A stretch of 29,368 bases of DNA, taken from Bordetella parapertussis (GTDB lineage Bacteria; Pseudomonadota; Gammaproteobacteria; Burkholderiales; Burkholderiaceae_C). This document shows, piece after piece, positions 11,546 to 19,303 of this stretch; the first letter of the stretch is position 1, and the number at the start of each line of letters is the position of its first letter. A model generated the notes under the pieces. That model was not told the DNA's origin. It did no database searches and saw only the letters and a program-made list of their open reading frames with translations. Made by a program: the position numbers and the translations under genes. The stretch spans positions 1 through 29,368 of the forward strand of contig CAMATW010000032.1 in NCBI GenBank assembly GCA_945861305.1, written 5' to 3'.

Positions 11546-12730
11546 CTATCGCTCGTTGAGTGATGTCCCTAAAGTTTTGATCACTGGTTTTAACAAATAG
11601 GTAAGCAAGTTGCGCGTACCTGTGCGTATGTCTATGCTAGCTGTCATCCCTGGTTTGATTTCCATCGATGTGACCTTGGGATTCTCTTGGTCTTTCGCTA
11701 TTCGGATATTGACCTTGTAATACACACTGGGTTGACCATTGGGTGTGTTGACCAATGAACCTTGTGCATTATTGTCAGACAGTGTGTCGGGACTGATATC
11801 GATCAACTCTCCTTTCAGATTACCGTAAATGCTGTAGTCATATGCGTCAAGCGTGATGAAGACAATTTGCCCTTTAACCAACTGACCAATGTCGGATGGA
11901 GTTACTTTGGCCTCTAGTAGCAAAGCGTCACCCACAGGCGCTATTTGCATGAGCTCGTCGCCAGGCCTTAGCACTCCACCCAGTGTATGGATTTTCAAGG
12001 TCTTCACTATGCCATCCATGGGGGCCATGATGTCGGTATGTGACAACAAGTTTTCAGCACCGTTGAGTTTTTGGTTTTGGCTAGATAATTCATCCTCAAT
12101 TCGTGTTAACTCGGTACGGGTGTCTTGTAAATATTTGTTTTTTGTAGCGGCTATACGCCCTTCAATTTCAGTGACTTGGCGTTTGGCACGCAAAACATCA
12201 AGCTCGCTGACATCTCCACTTTTAAACAAGTTGTCGTTCATACGCTTTTCTTGTAAGGCCATGGCCAAAGCATCTTGCATGGTGCGCAACTCTTCATCAA
12301 GCGAGCGCTTTCGCTGCATGTAAAGGCCTTGCTGGGCAGACACAAACTCTGGATAGCGCTTGAACTCAGCTCCAAATTGAGGAGTTTCAAAATGCACCTC
12401 GGCTTTGGCGCGTAACAAAGATGCCTTGAGCGACATCATTCGAGAGCGCGTCTCTTCTAGGTTGGCCTGAACCCGTTCTTTTTCGAGCACAGCCAGTAAC
12501 TGCCCACTGGTGACGGTGTCGCCCTCTTTAACTGCGAGTTCTTTCAAAATGCCACCATCGGCGGTTTGTACCAATTGGGTTCTGGCGCTCAAAATGACCT
12601 GACCCGTGGTGTGTACCGTTTGGTCAATTTCAAAGTAGCCTGCCCAAGCAATAAACCCACCCAAGCAGGCGCATAGAAGCAGTATTAATCGGCCACTGCG
12701 CTTATCCTCGTATACGTAGTCGTCGCTCAT
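11546..12730 (-). CDS. Type I secretion periplasmic adaptor (HlyD family)
   Basis: This 394-residue membrane-fusion protein should link the inner-membrane ABC transporter to the TolC-like channel. A short cytoplasmic N-terminus (MSDDYVYEDKRS) precedes one membrane helix (GRLILLLCACLGGFIAWAGYF, broken here as GRLILLLCACLGG and FIAWAGYF). Next come the first biotinyl-lipoyl half (LVQTADGGILKELAVKEGDT), a long alpha-hairpin coiled coil (about 110-230) and the second half (APMDGIVKTLKIHTLGGVLRP). The C-terminal MEIKPGMTASIDIRTG segment is the HlyD-family beta-barrel signature, followed by LLTYLLKP. The ATG overlaps the ABC gene stop by 4 bases, making it the third gene of the operon. Confidence 0.9.
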   Translation of the reverse strand: MSDDYVYEDKRSGRLILLLCACLGGFIAWAGYFEIDQTVHTTGQVILSARTQLVQTADGGILKELAVKEGDTVTSGQLLAVLEKERVQANLEETRSRMMSLKASLLRAKAEVHFETPQFGAEFKRYPEFVSAQQGLYMQRKRSLDEELRTMQDALAMALQEKRMNDNLFKSGDVSELDVLRAKRQVTEIEGRIAATKNKYLQDTRTELTRIEDELSSQNQKLNGAENLLSHTDIMAPMDGIVKTLKIHTLGGVLRPGDELMQIAPVGDALLLEAKVTPSDIGQLVKGQIVFITLDAYDYSIYGNLKGELIDISPDTLSDNNAQGSLVNTPNGQPSVYYKVNIRIAKDQENPKVTSMEIKPGMTASIDIRTGTRNLLTYLLKPVIKTLGTSLNER

Positions 12731-14859
12731 GCTGTTTTTGCGGTAGTGCGAATAGGTGTGACAGGATTTGGATTTTGCAAACGTTCCAACACTTTGTCTT
12801 TGGGGCCATCCAACACAATTTCATGGTTTGCCACCACAATTAATCTATCTACTAAGGTAAGAAGTTCGTGTTTGTGGGTGGTCATGACCAAGGTGTCTGT
12901 GGGTCGTAAGGTTTGCGATAACGCTTGGATAAGTTTCTGTTCGGTTTGCCTGTCCATTGAAGAGGTGGGTTCATCGAGAAGCCAAATTTTGGGGCTTCGC
13001 AAAAAAACACGGGTGAGATGAACCAATTGGCGCTGACCTGCAGACAACCCCATACCCCCCTCAGAGATCGGCAGTTGCAAGCCTTTAGGGTGTACTTTGA
13101 TAACCAATTGAAGCAAACCTGTTTTCTCTGCTGCCGCCAGCAATGTGTCGTCACCTGGGTCTAACAGGCCCAGGATGAGGTTCTCCCGCAAGGTGCCAGC
13201 AAATAGGCGACCTTCTTGCGCTAAGAACCCCATGTTCTCAGACAACAGGGGTTTGTTCAGTTGGGTGATGTCCATGTGGTCAAGCAACACTCTTCCTTCT
13301 TGTGGCTTGTACATGCCAGACAGCAATCTAAGTAAAGTGGTTTTGCCTGAACCAATGGGGCCGATGATGCCAATTTTTTCACCTGCTTGAATTTGCAGTT
13401 TATTGACTTGCAACGCTTTTTGGGCATTACCTTGATAAGCTGTACTGACTTTTTCTACCAAGTATGAACCTTGAACAGTCTCAGGCATGAGAGGATGTTC
13501 ATGGCCATGGTGGTCGTCTTCCAATTTCCACATGCGGTCCAAACCTTGTAAGGCTGCTTTAACATGACCCCACTGCAAAAGTAAGGATGGCAACATGCTC
13601 ACAGGCGTCAAAATGCGGCCAGCCAAGATGGAGCAAGCAATCAAGCCCCCTATGGTGGTCATGCCCGCAGACACCAACAATGCGCCTAGGGCCACAATCA
13701 GGATATAGGCGACTTGTTGAAGAGTAGCCGTGGTGTGTTGGTTCCTCTCGGTGATATGTCGCAAAGTGATTTCATGGTTTCGGGACTCATCTGCGGCGCC
13801 CATCCAACGGCTGAGCATTCGCCACCCGCCTTGTCCAGACTTGATGGTTTCTGCTCCTTCAATGGTTTCAACCAAGATGCCGGTTTTAAAGTTGCTTAGG
13901 TGTGTGGCGCTACTGGCCAATTTTTCGATGCGTTTGCGATGCCAGATGCCACTGAAGAATGCCAGCAAAAAAAACAAAATGGGAATTGCGGTAAGAACAG
14001 GATGACCCACAAAACCAATCAGTACCAAAAAGATGACTACAAAAGGTGCATCCACCATCAAGTGGGTGGTGGCAGTGGTGAGAAAACTGCGCACAGTTTG
14101 ATAGGCACTCATTTGGGCCGCCAAACTACCCACACTTGAAGGCATTTGGTCGAGCCGGATCGACAGCAAGCGCATGAACACCTTGCGCGATAACTGCTGA
14201 TCTACCGAATCAATGAGTACATCGTAAAGCGATGATCTTGCGTGTTTCATCAAGTATTCCACCGCCAGTGCCATCAACACACCCAACGTCAGTACCGTTA
14301 AAGTTTGCGTGGCATTGGTGGGAATGACACGGTTGTAGATTTGCATACTGTAGAGCGAGGTGCCCAACACCAAAATATTGATGGCCATGGTTGCCAACAT
14401 GATTTCAAACAAGCGCGTAGGGTGTGAGAACAACTGCTGTTTGATGAGGCTGTAGACGGGACTGGTGGAGGAATCAAAAGGCTGTAACAAAGACAGCTTG
14501 ACCAAATGTGTTTTCTTTTGGATAGGCCTATCGCTGGTGGATTCAGCAAACTTTTGCTGTTCTTCCACCCAAGTCTCAATGATCCATTTCCCATGCGCGT
14601 TTTGTCCGCGAACCACGAACCATCCCACCAAAGGGTTATGCGCCAACAAAGGCATATTGGCAGGATCGGGTTTACGAAACCAGCGTGGTTGAGGCACATT
14701 CAAAACACGACCAAGAGCATTGATGGCCTGTTTCACACTCCGTGGCTTGCGTTGCTTGACATCAGCGACGGCTTGCAATAAGGCTGAGCGGTCTATGGGG
14801 TTTTGTTGCAGTTGCGCAATGCGAACCATGCAGGCCGGTAATGAAGCGAGTGTGCTCAT
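12727..14859 (-). CDS. Type I secretion ABC transporter with degenerate C39-like domain
   Basis: This 710-residue half-transporter exports protein substrates in one step. The N-terminal region of about 130 residues resembles the C39 peptidase fold, but no Cys sits where the catalytic one should be. It is therefore probably a non-cleaving substrate-docking domain, as in HlyB and LapB. A six-helix ABC membrane domain follows (about 135-430). The nucleotide-binding domain has Walker A GPIGSGKTTLL (near 500), signature LSAGQRQ (near 603, a variant of LSGGQ), Walker B IWLLDEPTSSMD (near 623) and an H-loop (MTTHKHE). I chose ATG 14859 because it forms an ATGA overlap with the TolC-like stop; GTG- or ATG-like starts farther upstream lie inside that gene. 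Confidence 0.92.
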   Translation of the reverse strand: MSTLASLPACMVRIAQLQQNPIDRSALLQAVADVKQRKPRSVKQAINALGRVLNVPQPRWFRKPDPANMPLLAHNPLVGWFVVRGQNAHGKWIIETWVEEQQKFAESTSDRPIQKKTHLVKLSLLQPFDSSTSPVYSLIKQQLFSHPTRLFEIMLATMAINILVLGTSLYSMQIYNRVIPTNATQTLTVLTLGVLMALAVEYLMKHARSSLYDVLIDSVDQQLSRKVFMRLLSIRLDQMPSSVGSLAAQMSAYQTVRSFLTTATTHLMVDAPFVVIFLVLIGFVGHPVLTAIPILFFLLAFFSGIWHRKRIEKLASSATHLSNFKTGILVETIEGAETIKSGQGGWRMLSRWMGAADESRNHEITLRHITERNQHTTATLQQVAYILIVALGALLVSAGMTTIGGLIACSILAGRILTPVSMLPSLLLQWGHVKAALQGLDRMWKLEDDHHGHEHPLMPETVQGSYLVEKVSTAYQGNAQKALQVNKLQIQAGEKIGIIGPIGSGKTTLLRLLSGMYKPQEGRVLLDHMDITQLNKPLLSENMGFLAQEGRLFAGTLRENLILGLLDPGDDTLLAAAEKTGLLQLVIKVHPKGLQLPISEGGMGLSAGQRQLVHLTRVFLRSPKIWLLDEPTSSMDRQTEQKLIQALSQTLRPTDTLVMTTHKHELLTLVDRLIVVANHEIVLDGPKDKVLERLQNPNPVTPIRTTAKTA

Positions 14860-16124
14860 GGTTTGGAATTGACGGGTGAGTAGTTGTCGCTCGTCAAAAT
14901 ATGCAGGTGCCAACTGGTTTGCAGTTCTGCCCCGCGCACCTCAGCCAATTGCATTTCGTTTTGAGCCACATCTTTGGCTACGGTCATCAAGTCAAGCCAA
15001 GTCTTTCGCCCTGCATTGAACTGTCGCTCAAAGGACTCCAGTACTGCCATCGAGGACTGCAATGCCCCTTGGATTGCTTGCATTCTTTGTTGCAAGGATC
15101 GAATCACACTCACATCATTGATAACCAGTTCCCGAACAAGTCGTTCTTGCGATTGAATTTCGAATTCACTGGTATCTTCTTGCGATTTGGCGGCGGAGAT
15201 CTGAGTGAAGGAAGACAAGCCGGGCCCGAATTTGCTGCTTACCCCAATGAAGACACGCGTGTGTGCATTGGTATCTGTTGAAAAATAGTTTCCATATTGG
15301 CGTTCTGCGCGTATATAAATATCGGGTTTTAAGGCTGACTCTTTTTCTTGCTTACTAGCGCGAGAAATCACCGCCTGCGCTTTGGCTTTTAATAAATCAG
15401 GCGAATGCAACTGAGCATTGGCCAGCAAGCTTTCAAGCAGCTGCGTATGTTGAATAGGGCCCGTTTTATCCGCTTGCAGTTGCGTGGCGATAAGGGTATT
15501 TCCCGTTAATTCAATCAGTTTATGAATGGCCAATTCAGCCTGCAACTTGGCTGAAAACAGTTCACCCGAGGTTGCATCAAGTCGACCTTGCACGAGTGCG
15601 AGGTCACTTTGGGGGGAGACCCCTTGGGTAATGCGATTTTGAGCTTGCTGCAAAAGTTTTTGGTGAATGACTAAACTTTTCTCGATCGATTGCGCTTTCA
15701 ACTCCGCGCTACTCCAATCAGAATAGGCCTGAACCACTTTGAGCGCAATGTTTCGGCGAGTCTCGCGCACACTGGCTTGGCTGAGTTGCAAATTGGCCTT
15801 GGCTTTGTCTAGTTGGGCCGTGAATTGACCGCCGGTGAAGATGGGTTGGGTGATGCGAACGGTAGCGACGCCATCACTTCCGATATAGCTTGGGTCAGCG
15901 CTGTTTTTTTTAACACTCTCGTAACTGAGTTGTGGGGTCGGGTATCTTTGGTACTCAGCAGTTTCAATGCCGATTTGCGCTGATTTTTCATTAGAAAGTT
16001 GGGCGCGCACAGAAGGGTGTGATTCGATGGCCAGTTGAATCAGTTGCCCCAAATTCAAGGTTTGTGCGGTAACTAAGCTATGCAACAGGCTGAATAAAAC
16101 ACCAATAAAAAACCGAGGGGACAA
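14856..16124 (-). CDS. TolC-family outer-membrane channel of the type I secretion system
   Basis: This outer-membrane efflux protein should form the exit duct. The 422-residue sequence starts with a signal peptide (RFFIGVLFSLLHSLVTA, cleavage likely before QTLNLGQL). It then shows the two OEP repeats: LAIESHPSVRAQLSNEKSAQ opens the first, and ITQPIFTGGQFTAQLDKAK is the typical first beta/coil junction. The second repeat includes LHSPDLLKAKAQAVISRAS and FNAGRKTWLDLMTVAKD. The only credible start is TTG at 16124, and no Shine-Dalgarno sequence is visible. No in-frame ATG occurs before the signal peptide. It leads the operon tolC-like, ABC, hlyD-like, facing the AT-rich intergenic region. Confidence 0.9.
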   Translation of the reverse strand: MSPRFFIGVLFSLLHSLVTAQTLNLGQLIQLAIESHPSVRAQLSNEKSAQIGIETAEYQRYPTPQLSYESVKKNSADPSYIGSDGVATVRITQPIFTGGQFTAQLDKAKANLQLSQASVRETRRNIALKVVQAYSDWSSAELKAQSIEKSLVIHQKLLQQAQNRITQGVSPQSDLALVQGRLDATSGELFSAKLQAELAIHKLIELTGNTLIATQLQADKTGPIQHTQLLESLLANAQLHSPDLLKAKAQAVISRASKQEKESALKPDIYIRAERQYGNYFSTDTNAHTRVFIGVSSKFGPGLSSFTQISAAKSQEDTSEFEIQSQERLVRELVINDVSVIRSLQQRMQAIQGALQSSMAVLESFERQFNAGRKTWLDLMTVAKDVAQNEMQLAEVRGAELQTSWHLHILTSDNYSPVNSKP

Positions 16125-16517
16125 TATACGCAGTGTGAACTTGGAAATCTGAAAAATCGAATATTTTTTGAAAAAATCTTTAAATAACAGCTTATTATGA
16201 GTTTTTTCAAATGTATAACTTTAAAAAAATTGGTTTATAAAGGCACTTTCTTCCTTCATCTCATTTAAGCGTTGCAAAACAACCTCGAATTCACTAATTG
16301 GTGAATTATTTTGGTAATTTTGAAATATTGTTCGGCTTTTATAATGAATTAATAATAACTTTAATAATATAAAATATGAATACTATTATATATATTTAAT
16401 TTTGTATTTTTGAAGGCTTTCATCATTAATTGAAATTTTTTTCAATGAAATCAATAGCTTCAACAAAAAACTTAATTTTTATTGATTTTTTGCTAAGATA
16501 ACGATTAAGGAGCATGT
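16125..16517. other. AT-rich divergent intergenic region between T1SS and bactofilin operons
   Basis: This 393-base stretch holds no convincing gene. A hand count of 16141-16500 gives 75 G or C in 360 bases, about 21%, against roughly 42-62% in sampled coding lines. Long A and T runs and TATATA-like steps suggest curved DNA suited to H-NS/MvaT-type or IHF binding. It must contain the promoters of both operons, but no hexamer pair stands out. TAAGAT at 16494-16499, preceded by TG as in extended -10 boxes, is a weak plus-strand candidate. ATTGAA/TTCAAT at 16429-16434 and 16441-16446 forms a small inverted repeat. Confidence 0.75.
16288..16307. promoter_or_regulatory. 20-base near-palindrome, candidate operator
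   Basis: AATTCACTAATTGGTGAATT is symmetric at 9 of 10 base pairs (only T8/G13 breaks it). It sits near the middle of the AT-rich divergent region, about 165 bases from the TolC-like start and 211 from the first bactofilin start. Such dyads are typical of dimeric repressors or activators. The protein that would bind it is unknown. Confidence 0.45.
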
Positions 16518-16895
16518 ATGGCTAATCAATCCGATTCTTTAGAAAGCGTTGTCATTGGTGACGGCGTGGTTGTCAAGGGTGCGTTTACCGTTCCTTTAAA
16601 AGCTGTGATAAACGGCGTGATAGAAGGTGACTTGACGGCACAAGAGGTCTTGATTGGCCCAACAGGACGTATCACTGGCCGTGTTTCGGCCAAGGTTATT
16701 GACGTTCGCGGCCAGCTTCACAACACCATCGTCAGTGAAAAAAGCCTGATTGTTCGCGCTACTGGAAAAATTGTGGGCAAAATTCACTATTCGGAAATTG
16801 AGATTGAAAAGGGTGGCGAAATTGAAGGCGAGCTCAGCCAAGGCGCCGAGCCAACAGCCCCCCTCGTATCTGCCCCTAGCCCTATAAAGCCCTAA
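16518..16895 (+). CDS. Bactofilin (first copy)
   Basis: Bactofilins polymerise without nucleotide into membrane-associated filaments that position cell-wall enzymes or appendage factors. The 125-residue protein is almost all bactofilin domain (about 8-108). It starts with ESVVIGDGVVVKGAF and repeats short beta-helix rungs such as INGVIEGDLTAQEVLIGPTG, VSAKVIDVRGQL and KIHYSEIEIEKGGEIEGELS. A short Pro-rich C-terminal tail follows (PTAPLVSAPSPIKP), and the N-terminal tail is only about 7 residues. A strong AAGGAG (16507-16512) precedes the ATG. It is the first gene of a four-gene cluster with an M23 peptidase, a second bactofilin and a RodZ-like protein. Confidence 0.9.
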   Translation: MANQSDSLESVVIGDGVVVKGAFTVPLKAVINGVIEGDLTAQEVLIGPTGRITGRVSAKVIDVRGQLHNTIVSEKSLIVRATGKIVGKIHYSEIEIEKGGEIEGELSQGAEPTAPLVSAPSPIKP

Positions 16896-16906
16896 GTTTT
16901 CTTAGG
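16891..16906 (+). promoter_or_regulatory. Stem-loop between first bactofilin and M23 gene
   Basis: CCTAAG (16891-16896) pairs perfectly with CTTAGG (16901-16906) around a TTTT loop, followed by TTTAATT. The stem includes the bactofilin TAA stop codon. The T-run is too weak for a clear terminator. It might attenuate read-through or protect the upstream mRNA end, giving more bactofilin than peptidase. Confidence 0.4.
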
Positions 16907-16923
16907 TTTAATTACCAAGATTT

Positions 16924-17976
16924 ATGCGTTTTGCGATCAGTCCTCTAATAGTTCAATTGCGAGCTTTGCCGAACCTTGTGCGACAGCTTTGGGTTCGCGA
17001 TTACCAAGACGTCAAACTCATCATTGAGCAAAGTGGCGATTTGCGTTACTTCAATATACCTGCGCGCATTCAGCGGGTCTTCGCTCGCGGTACTATCGTT
17101 TTGAGTTCAGTTACCATTTGTAGTTTGATGGTTTTATCAGTTACCTCCTTATTGCTGGGCATCAGCCGCGCTCGTCTTGAGCGCTCGCATGAAGAGGTTT
17201 TCAGGGCCTTGATCAGCAGCACCGCCGAATCTCAGCAGGATATAGAAAACCAACAAGCATTGACCGAGGAACAGATGGTGAGCTTGGCGCAAACCATTCG
17301 CGATCGTGACATGAGTATTCGCCGTTTTGTTGAAACCTCAATGGTGGCTGTTTCTGAAGAAAACGACGACCTTAAGTCACAACTGGTAACTTCTGGATTG
17401 ACTGAAAAAATCATCAAAATCATTCAGCAAAACTCTGCAAATGGCGGCTTCTCCTTGGATGATGATTTACAGGCCAACCCTTTGATGCGTGGCAAGGTCG
17501 CGGAAGAGTTGTCCACCAACCGCTCTTTGCGTGAAGTGCTTTACGCTTTGCCTAATCGTATGCCGGTGACCAATTTCAGCTTTTCCTCTGACTTTGGTAT
17601 CCGTAAACACCCACTTACCGGCAAGTCCCATTTCCATACTGGTGTTGATATGATGAGCGAAACAGGAGACGATAAAGTCTTTGCCGTCAAGCCTGGCGTT
17701 GTAGTTATGTCAGAATTTCACCCCCAGTATGGCAACACCGTTGTCGTTCGTCACTCCAATGGAGTGGAGTCTCTGTATGCTCACATGGCACAGTTGTTGG
17801 TCAAAGTGGGCGATAAAGTGACAACCGACAATGTCTTGGGCTATATTGGTAACACTGGATTTTCTACCGGCAAGCATCTGCATTTTGAGATATTGGTGGG
17901 AGGTTATCCTGTGAACCCTCAAAAAGTGATCCGTACCGCCCAATATGTTCAGCAAATCCAAAACAAACAGCCCTAA
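16924..17976 (+). CDS. Membrane-anchored M23 peptidoglycan endopeptidase
   Basis: This 350-residue protein should cut peptide cross-links in peptidoglycan. It has a cytoplasmic N-terminus of about 55 residues and one transmembrane helix (about 57-79, TIVLSSVTICSLMVLSVTSL). A periplasmic coiled coil follows (about 82-165, with many Glu/Gln heptads such as ESQQDIENQQALTEEQMVSL). The C-terminal M23 domain has intact zinc ligands: His238 and Asp242 in HFHTGVDMM and His320 in KHLHFEILVGGYPVNP. SDFGIRKHPLTGKSHFH is the typical M23 entry. It lies between two bactofilin genes and its 3' end overlaps the second. Bactofilin-M23 pairs are known in other bacteria (CcmA/Csd1 in Helicobacter, BacA/LmdC in Hyphomonas). 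By analogy it would be positioned by bactofilin filaments. Confidence 0.92.
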   Translation: MRFAISPLIVQLRALPNLVRQLWVRDYQDVKLIIEQSGDLRYFNIPARIQRVFARGTIVLSSVTICSLMVLSVTSLLLGISRARLERSHEEVFRALISSTAESQQDIENQQALTEEQMVSLAQTIRDRDMSIRRFVETSMVAVSEENDDLKSQLVTSGLTEKIIKIIQQNSANGGFSLDDDLQANPLMRGKVAEELSTNRSLREVLYALPNRMPVTNFSFSSDFGIRKHPLTGKSHFHTGVDMMSETGDDKVFAVKPGVVVMSEFHPQYGNTVVVRHSNGVESLYAHMAQLLVKVGDKVTTDNVLGYIGNTGFSTGKHLHFEILVGGYPVNPQKVIRTAQYVQQIQNKQP

Positions 17977-18415
17977 TCCGGCGGTCCAGAGCTCTACAGT
18001 TGCCCCCCAGCCTGTCGCTCCTGTACAGTCACCAATTCCCAGCGAGCCGGTTCCGCTAGATCAACCTCAGAGAAATACCATGATGGATATCATTTCTTCC
18101 AATGCTTCGAAACCCTCTATTTTGAGTGAGGGCTTTTCTTTTCGAGGTGAAATTTCCGCCAAGGGTGCCATTCATGTTGAAGGCTCTCTCAATGGTCAAG
18201 TTCAAGTGGATGAACTCACCATAGGTTCGCGTGGCCAGGTTGAAGGTGTGGTGACTTGCTCGAGCCTGCATATCAAGGGTAAGTTTTCAGGCACAGCCAC
18301 CTGCAGCGAGCTGATCGTGACCTCTTCTGCATCAGTAGATGGCCATGTTGTCTACCAAACTTTGTCGGTACAAAAAGGCGCCTCTATCAAGGGCGAGTTG
18401 CTGCTGGTAAAGTAA
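17945..18415 (+). CDS. Bactofilin (second copy)
   Basis: This is a second bactofilin of 156 residues. It has a disordered Pro/Ser-rich N-terminal tail of about 60 residues (VAPQPVAPVQSPIPSEPVPL) and then the bactofilin core (about 62-156), from SILSEGFSFRGEISAKGAI through VEGSLNGQVQVDELTIGSRG to SVQKGASIKGELLLVK. The tail layout is the reverse of the first copy: a long N-tail and no C-tail. The ATG lies 32 bases inside the end of the M23 gene, in another frame, so the two are translationally linked. No strong Shine-Dalgarno sequence is visible. The two bactofilins are divergent enough to be distinct subunits rather than a recent duplication. Confidence 0.9.
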   Translation: MFSKSKTNSPNPAVQSSTVAPQPVAPVQSPIPSEPVPLDQPQRNTMMDIISSNASKPSILSEGFSFRGEISAKGAIHVEGSLNGQVQVDELTIGSRGQVEGVVTCSSLHIKGKFSGTATCSELIVTSSASVDGHVVYQTLSVQKGASIKGELLLVK

Positions 18416-18445
18416 AGACTTTCGCTGACCCGCTTAAGGCTTGGA

Positions 18446-19303
18446 ATGTCGGATGTTTCTCAAATAGACGGAAGTGCGGTACGTTTGTGCCGCGAAGCCC
18501 AAGGCTGGGCAATCAACGATCTCGCTGCCAGGGCCTGTTTATCGGTCAAGCAGGTTCGCCAAATTGAAGAGGGCGGCCTGAGTTCTTTTTACAGCGAGAG
18601 CGTCAAACTTACTGCGGCAAGAAAAATTGCAGCTCTTTTGCAACTTAGCGAAGATCAGCTATTCGGCCAAGTACCACCTGCTACTTCTCCTCTCGAGGAA
18701 GATGCGCTCTTTTTTGCTTCTCAATCGACACCTGCAAGCGTCTTAGCTTCAATTACTACCCAACCTTTTTCTGTGCCGGATAAAACCCAGACAGATTCTT
18801 CAGGCGTTCATTTGATCCGCAGCGAGGCCCTGCACATCTTGGCGCAACCGCCCGAGATTGACTGGACAAGTTCCTCACCTGAGGCTGATGAAACCAGAAA
18901 AGCTCAAGACCTGCCCAAAACGCTAGTTAATGCGACGGCTATCAAGGATTCAAGCTCAACTGCGGCAGATGTGACAAGCCCCTCGGGTAATTATTTCCTG
19001 AAAATATTGGTCTTGTTTTTGGTGGCGATCGCTGTGGCTGCCTTGATGCGTCCTAGGCCTGTGGAACCCACTGCATCCTCGCCAGAAGCTTCGACAGGGC
19101 AAAGTATGACCCCACCCGTGGCCCCTGCACTAGGGGAGTCTTCAACATCTGAAACTGGGGCTGGAGCAGCCGCTGAGCTTGCTGCAGGCCAAGCTGATGG
19201 CAAACTCTCGGCAGCGTCAGATTTAAGCCCCGTTAACCCAATTACAAGCAGCGGTGCGGTCCCTGCGACGGCTCCAGCAGCTAAAGCACCCTCTGAGCGT
19301 TAA
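18446..19303 (+). CDS. RodZ-like protein: cytoplasmic HTH, one membrane helix, periplasmic tail
   Basis: This 285-residue protein has a RodZ-type layout. An Xre/HTH_25-like domain occupies about residues 10-70 (LCREAQGWAINDLAARACLS, VKQVRQIEEGG, ARKIAALLQLSEDQLFG). A poorly conserved cytoplasmic linker runs to about 180, then a transmembrane helix (about 182-203, FLKILVLFLVAIAVAALM). The periplasmic tail of about 80 residues is Ala/Ser/Pro/Thr-rich. In RodZ the HTH domain binds MreB rather than DNA. This protein lacks the folded beta-domain (DUF4115) expected at the RodZ C-terminus. It follows the second bactofilin by 30 bases and so probably belongs to the same module. A membrane-bound regulator is the alternative. 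Its TAA overlaps the hemH stop on the other strand. Confidence 0.75.
   Translation: MSDVSQIDGSAVRLCREAQGWAINDLAARACLSVKQVRQIEEGGLSSFYSESVKLTAARKIAALLQLSEDQLFGQVPPATSPLEEDALFFASQSTPASVLASITTQPFSVPDKTQTDSSGVHLIRSEALHILAQPPEIDWTSSSPEADETRKAQDLPKTLVNATAIKDSSSTAADVTSPSGNYFLKILVLFLVAIAVAALMRPRPVEPTASSPEASTGQSMTPPVAPALGESSTSETGAGAAAELAAGQADGKLSAASDLSPVNPITSSGAVPATAPAAKAPSER

Follow-up and report, generated by a model that had tools for sequence, protein, structure and literature searches.

A compact row of four genes in the stretch of DNA analysed here (contig CAMATW010000032.1 of assembly GCA_945861305.1, 29,368 nucleotides (nt) in all and hereafter the window), from a bacterium of aquatic type, encodes a bactofilin (BacX), a membrane-anchored M23 endopeptidase, a second bactofilin (BacY) and a RodZ-like protein that combines a helix-turn-helix (HTH) domain with a transmembrane (TM) helix (HTH-TM). 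Bactofilin–M23 modules are already known, with effects on how cells curve and how stalks grow; what would be new is the part that a RodZ-like protein may play in such a set. In the relatives that were compared the four genes are kept together, and the set therefore probably shapes the cell wall locally, i.e. we favour, with some reserve, a reading of the four genes as one operon for local cell-wall remodelling. The evidence comes from conserved gene order and selection, from a dual-coding overlap, from the N-termini of the peptidase and of BacY and from related gene neighbourhoods elsewhere.

Conservation of the four-gene unit

The genes and their coordinates (table 1), the gaps of 28 nt between bacX and the M23 gene and of 30 nt between bacY and the HTH-TM gene, and the 32-nt overlap of the M23 gene with bacY were all borne out by the list of open reading frames and by Pfam domains, as described in an earlier note on this DNA. 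Genome contigs were scanned on the basis of the M23 alignment by means of two peptide patterns, which would miss more diverged forms, and 66 loci were obtained. Where the contigs reach, BacX is present in 65/65, BacY in 64/64 (with a broken frame in L012) and HTH-TM in 62/62 of them; contig ends cut five loci (L014, L017, L019, L027 and L066), and the HTH-TM of L031, missed by BLAST, was found by its reading frame. This conserved order supports the reading as a module, and the module genes share one phylogeny. For eight pairs of loci, the ratio of non-synonymous to synonymous substitution rates (dN/dS) ranges over 0.018–0.146 for BacX, M23 and BacY and 0.154–0.322 for HTH-TM, figures that are rough because dS exceeds 1 in many of the comparisons (up to 2.35) and that fit purifying selection apparently acting on all four genes, a further argument for the module.

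The records are titled Limnohabitans, Comamonadaceae, Burkholderiales or Betaproteobacteria, often together with the name of a lake or pond, the exceptions being L001 (Bordetella parapertussis), L012 (Burkholderiaceae), L019 (Sulfuritalea) and L066 (Alcaligenaceae). The loci form one group by descent, mostly Limnohabitans-like Comamonadaceae. The closest relative is L001, a metagenome contig (91% in the M23 protein), whose title looks wrong beside the other relatives. Records titled Limnohabitans sp. B9-3, JirII-31 and Jir61 carry the module (L022, L042 and L053), which makes the question amenable to bench work.

Few genomes outside this group have the M23 protein at full length: with a limit of E = 1e-45, it was found in one of 349 genomes of the order, the search centre itself, and at E up to 1e-30 matches occur in 27 of 250 genomes of the family, 3 at full length and 24 mainly in the M23 domain. 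The HTH-TM alignment matches a single genome of 274 in the class at 1e-10, again the search centre, and 21 of 349 genomes in the order at 1e-3, with 6 at 1e-10, five of which do not represent module proteins. The four-gene order, which the earlier note had suggested following across Burkholderiales, is kept among related loci as far as contigs reach and is not general in Burkholderiales.

Since all loci belong to one group, in which gene order can persist by descent, and hemH, too, comes next after the module in 52/66 of them, the row might also be an ordinary bactofilin–M23 pair with two co-inherited, functionally separate neighbours. In eight loci (L041, L045, L046, L054, L059, L060, L061 and L064), however, the four genes stay together despite different surroundings, with no hemH match in the stretch examined; together with the coding sequence that M23 and BacY share, this makes such a functional separation very unlikely in our view.

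Table 1. Features of the four-gene module and of related loci (window coordinates unless a locus is given).
Feature	Position	Strand	Evidence or remarks
BacX, bactofilin, 125 amino acids	16518–16895	+	open reading frame list; Pfam Bactofilin, E = 9.9e-20
LmdC-like bitopic M23 endopeptidase, 350 amino acids	16924–17976	+	open reading frame list; Peptidase_M23, E = 4.7e-29
M23 protein, predicted cytoplasmic β-hairpin, residues 30–45, proposed bactofilin-binding element	17011–17058	+	AlphaFold2 strands 30–36 and 39–45, pLDDT (predicted local distance difference test) about 72–79
M23 protein, TM segment, residues 63–81	17110–17166	+	hydropathy 2.11; within predicted helix 47–103, pLDDT up to 89
M23 catalytic domain, residues 237–332, H238/D242/H287/H318/H320	17632–17919	+	Pfam, alignment, PDB relatives
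Dual-coding overlap, 32 nt, M23 C-terminus and BacY N-terminus	17945–17976	+	open reading frame list; overlap survey of loci
BacY, bactofilin, 156 amino acids	17945–18415	+	open reading frame list; Pfam Bactofilin, E = 1.5e-22
HTH-TM, RodZ-like bitopic protein, 285 amino acids, without RodZ_C	18446–19303	+	open reading frame list; Pfam; NCBIfam; hydropathy
HTH-TM, RodZ-type HTH, residues 1–75, F48-Y49-S50, V53/A57 at MreB-contact positions	18446–18670	+	alignments
HTH-TM, conserved linear motif RSEALHILAQPPE, residues 125–137, within poorly conserved linker	18818–18856	+	alignment A3
HTH-TM, TM helix, residues 183–201	18992–19048	+	hydropathy 2.64; AlphaFold2 helix 182–201, pLDDT 83–89
HTH-TM, C-terminal tail, residues 204–285, 61% P/A/S/T	19055–19300	+	composition; no RodZ_C match
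Non-module pair, HTH–bactofilin–MreB2 row	L139:4470–8586; L140:1676–5727		soluble HTH_25 protein; MreB2 474–476 bits
Non-module pair, RodZ2 adjoining bactofilin	L141; L142		response regulator adjacent in L142
Non-module pair, RodZ2 in long cluster	L131		

Two bactofilins and an LmdC-like peptidase

The two bactofilins, called different in the earlier note, score 71.1 and 80.1 bits against the Pfam family (PF04519, gathering score 27.9) and are 24% identical over 102 positions. BacX starts with MANQSD, i.e. without an MF-type membrane-targeting sequence. The N-terminus of BacY, MFSKSKTN, resembles MFSKQAKS, the membrane-targeting sequence of Caulobacter crescentus BacA, in which the critical residues named in the available text include F2 and K4 (PMC12448750); BacY retains both, and this supports the module reading.

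This N-terminus is encoded within the end of the M23 gene. A frame that starts with MF and enters the bactofilin exists in 61/65 loci (window included), with an overlap of 32 nt in 52 of them, 29 nt in seven, 26 nt in one and 11 nt in another, and in the 52 loci with the 32-nt overlap the wobble positions of the M23 codons are almost fixed in its first part and variable immediately upstream. That the overlap measures 26–32 nt in all but one of the 61 cases, and that hardly any M23 wobble position varies in it, is a further point for the module reading. The BacY frame of L017 is cut by the contig end. At L028:3720 and L039:1705 an MF start lies in the overlap, its frame ends within 19–25 codons, and the frame of the bactofilin core starts with MMDIISSN.

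The M23 protein has one hydrophobic segment, at about residues 63–81, and five residues (H238, D242, H287, H318 and H320) that are invariant in a 47-sequence alignment (A4, the window plus 46 sequences from the best 120 of 442 matches); solved M23 enzymes (3slu, 6muk and ShyA) align with it over about residues 214–337, these five residues included. The zinc ligands are presumably among them. The earlier note had read a membrane-anchored M23 peptidase with intact zinc ligands here, and the observation holds. The protein's layout of a cytoplasmic β-hairpin, a TM helix and an M23 domain is, as far as predicted, that of LmdC, and its gene likewise lies next to a bactofilin gene; between the last two elements, where LmdC-type peptidases have a periplasmic coiled coil, AlphaFold2 predicts helices at low confidence. 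Recruitment of LmdC by BacA in R. rubrum depends on the cytoplasmic hairpin (PMC10945521, available text), and the module reading gains support from finding this predicted hairpin and TM helix at the M23 N-terminus. BacX–M23 thus matches the known bactofilin–LmdC pair, as far as the predicted hairpin can tell.

In a bactofilin tree, BacX groups with the bactofilin that adjoins an LmdC-like stub in L121 and L124, two 2-Mb genomes that are perhaps Polynucleobacter-like (set support 95/89), and BacY forms a separate clade. That in these two genomes a BacX relative adjoins such a stub and a RodZ-like HTH gene lies opposite also speaks for the module. The stub itself (L121:6760–7128 and L124:7078–7446, both minus strand) resembles the N-terminal part of the group's second M23 protein and has no Pfam match and no M23 domain.

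The RodZ-like protein

What had been called a RodZ-type protein keeps this description in its HTH and its bitopic layout and loses it as to RodZ identity. HTH_25 barely exceeds its Pfam cut-off (E = 1.1e-5, 25.6 bits against 24.6), RodZ_C (PF13464) was not matched at E up to 0.01, and the score against the NCBIfam RodZ equivalog NF008109 is 20.4 bits where 208 would be needed. The gene lies after bacY and before hemH, not at the ispG locus. When the HTH-TM alignment was used as a profile against the PDB, no match had an E value of 1 or less. As judged from its sequence, HTH-TM resembles RodZ in nothing but the HTH and the bitopic layout. In a tree of HTH domains, which is weak because it contains 24 short sequences, it groups with RodZ2, a second RodZ-like protein of these genomes, and with proteins of L120–L124, and stands apart (97/95) both from the rodZ found at the ispG locus and from the small HTH encoded with MreB2.

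Two aromatic residues are needed for MreB binding, F60/Y64 in Escherichia coli and Y66/F70 in Chlamydia CT009 (PMC4047632, available text). Mapped onto HTH-TM via CT009 (4gqm) and the rodZ of L126, which has F/F, these positions hold V53 and A57, both invariant in an alignment of 57 near homologues (A3, the window plus 56 sequences from the best 120 of 218 matches). The linker motif RSEALHILAQPPE is likewise invariant or nearly so in A3. The contact aromatics are no clean discriminator, in that the short rodZ of Limnohabitans-type genomes (our own label; L143 and L144) has F and L, and V and A occur in relatives from L120 and L123 that do carry RodZ_C.

Could HTH-TM nevertheless be a working RodZ replacement, which still binds MreB, though via an altered interface, and links the elongasome with the bactofilin–M23 scaffold? 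At the ispG locus, rodZ precedes ispG in 6/6 Limnohabitans-type genomes (G006, G009, G010, G011, G014 and G477) and is missing between rlmN and ispG in 8/8 other genomes with ispG (8 of 14 overall; L153–L160 and L173; ispG was not found in G002, and many of these genomes are metagenome assemblies). An HTH_25 search of the nine genomes outside the Limnohabitans type gave nothing over 38.6 bits, as compared with at least 54 bits in 66/68 other bactofilin-bearing genomes, and seven of the nine have MreB at 483 bits or more. Moreover, the HTH subfamily of HTH-TM includes divergent proteins with RodZ_C over cut-off (G325, G223 and G347), and the two aligned, those of G325 and G347, carry V and A; loss of the aromatics therefore need not mean loss of RodZ function. 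Still, HTH-TM has V and A at the two positions on which binding to MreB depends in E. coli and Chlamydia, RodZ2 is present in 6/9 genomes as the better candidate for a replacement, and the Limnohabitans-type genomes retain a short rodZ alongside the module. We therefore regard a RodZ replacement as rather unlikely.

A membrane-bound transcription regulator, tuning the operon or envelope genes, would account for the recognition-helix region (Q39–G44, invariant) being among the best-conserved parts of HTH-TM and for its homologues being named XRE-family regulators in several sources. Yet the net charge of the HTH is -1, RodZ domains have a similar appearance and the HTH of E. coli RodZ, in the part of the literature available to us, binds no DNA, and related HTH genes are linked with bactofilins at other loci as well. 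A regulatory role thus seems improbable, and a role of HTH-TM within the bactofilin module is preferred.

RodZ-like HTH genes beside other bactofilins

Fourteen module-carrying genomes hold 81 bactofilins, 4–8 each. In a sample of the phylum, 69/160 genomes have a bactofilin, and the 68 besides G006 hold 79, with only one genome having four or more. In the 14 genomes, which were chosen for the module, 19 HTH_25 matches (E up to 0.01) lie no more than 3 kb from a bactofilin, and 14 of these matches are the module itself (those of G005 and G014 having E values just above 0.001, the limit of the phylum control). The remaining five, all at E up to 0.001, stand against 0.31 expected at random, an excess that supports the module reading; as they stem from a single group, they do not count as five independent events. 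Among the 68 genomes of the phylum sample, with 79 bactofilins and 150 HTH_25 matches, no such pair lies within 14 kb, pairs split across contigs being invisible in both sets. A general companionship of RodZ-type HTH proteins and bactofilins is not borne out, the nearest pair there being 14.9 kb apart on the same contig.

The non-module pairs are of more than one kind (table 1). The HTH–bactofilin–MreB2 row lies opposite a response regulator and is followed in L140 by a histidine kinase (Pfam). In L130:279–9203 and L131:4532–13662, a bactofilin and minE, minD and minC on one strand lie opposite RodZ2–M23–bactofilin–BacX–M23–BacY–HTH-TM; Pfam, run on L130 only, identified MinE, MinC and a MinD/ParA-type ATPase. 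The RodZ_C match of RodZ2 in L130 is below cut-off (20.0 against 23.9).

Surroundings of the module in the window

The opposite strand carries a type I secretion set upstream (TolC, a type I secretion ABC protein matching TIGR03375 with 636 bits against 693, and HlyD; 11546–16124, minus) and hemH downstream of the module. The secretion genes were rejected as a part of it, their TolC/ABC homologues adjoining the module in only 5/66 loci (L001, L003, L004, L008 and L011; 49–92% identity). The intergenic region before bacX (16125–16517) is AT-rich, with a G+C content of 0.381 in the block 16001–17000. Terminator-like sites are no more frequent than in shuffled sequence (2 found against 3.6), and a putative attenuator hairpin between bacX and the M23 gene (16891–16906) was rejected: the same stretch was folded for other loci and, judged by eye, has no shared structure.

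Proposed function

Overall, these data suggest how the four products might work together. BacY filaments, which would be membrane-bound via the MFSKSK start, and BacX filaments may form a static scaffold. Most likely via BacX, this scaffold would capture the cytoplasmic β-hairpin of the LmdC-like M23 protein and thereby position the endopeptidase domain at a chosen site, where peptide cross-links would be cut; this step follows published work in other bacteria and the predicted hairpin. HTH-TM would then be a RodZ-related bitopic membrane adaptor, a linker role to which gene linkage points, with an HTH that serves the bactofilin scaffold rather than MreB in the usual way; alternatively, in the lineage of the window, the HTH may serve a partner docked by the RSEALHxLAQPPE motif. 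The presumed effect on cell shape might concern a pole, a stalk or curvature. A Limnohabitans paper lists four strains in a table, two of them curved rods (PMC3031073, available text), which agrees with a role in curvature and is no more than a hint.

Several observations weigh against this reading. The 66 loci are not independent, because they share their descent as one group and it was the M23 protein that led to them. No MF-start frame reaches the bactofilin in L025, L028 and L039, masked bases block the test in L049, and the BacY frame of L012 breaks after 88 codons by a frame change. The motif RSEALHILAQPPE is present in 26/60 complete HTH-TM frames (window included) and was not found in 34/60. 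AlphaFold2 gave a poor model for HTH-TM (mean pLDDT 48.8) and likewise for the M23 catalytic domain, with most of the protein outside the hairpin and the long helix below a pLDDT of 50. Finally, promoter-like sites in the window do not exceed those in shuffled sequence (4 found against 3.9). In sum, the earlier idea of a complete module of scaffold filaments, cell-wall cutter and membrane linker is partly supported: the co-conservation of the four genes, the predicted LmdC layout and one bactofilin with a membrane-targeting N-terminus speak for it, and the RodZ identity of the fourth protein does not stand.

At a larger scale, we tentatively raise an idea that we ourselves hold to be doubtful. 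In Limnohabitans-like Comamonadaceae, a RodZ-related subfamily may have switched partners from MreB to bactofilins, and several loci, i.e. BacX–M23–BacY–HTH-TM, RodZ2–bactofilin–response regulator and HTH–bactofilin–MreB2–histidine kinase, might constitute a network of several bactofilins that is controlled in part by two-component systems and took over some of the role of the elongasome, with canonical RodZ being lost in several lineages.

Comparison with known systems

Titles and abstract openings of the literature searched name no bactofilin–M23–RodZ-like operon, and searches pairing bactofilin with Limnohabitans, Polynucleobacter or Comamonadaceae returned no paper. Several known systems share parts of the layout. 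In the Helicobacter pylori CcmA system, a bactofilin likewise acts with M23 proteins (Csd1/Csd2) and bitopic TM partners (Csd5). To our knowledge, it uses other adaptor families and includes no RodZ-type HTH. Several bactofilins acting together, as may be the case for BacX and BacY, are known from the interacting bactofilins of Rhodomicrobium vannielii, which, unlike the window module, belong to an MreB-less organism; the words 'M23' and 'operon' are absent from the main text of that report as available (PMC10259793). E. coli-type RodZ resembles HTH-TM in its N-terminal HTH_25, single TM helix and C-terminal tail, whereas HTH-TM lacks RodZ_C and the MreB-contact aromatics, is encoded away from ispG and scores far under the NCBIfam cut-off.

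The closest parallel is BacA–LmdC of Hyphomonas neptunium and Rhodospirillum rubrum, in which a bactofilin stands beside a bitopic M23 peptidase with a hairpin before its TM helix; according to the available text of the same report, adjacent bactofilin and M23 genes occur in 226 species, and bacA and lmdC of H. neptunium overlap by 17 bp (PMC10945521). That such pairs are known had rightly been stated before. Unlike the BacA–LmdC pair, as far as the available text describes it, the unit in the window has two bactofilins, with the M23 gene between them, and a gene for a RodZ-like HTH-TM protein. By adding a RodZ relative to a bactofilin–M23 pair, this compact operon would name a candidate linker between a bactofilin scaffold and the membrane or the elongasome.

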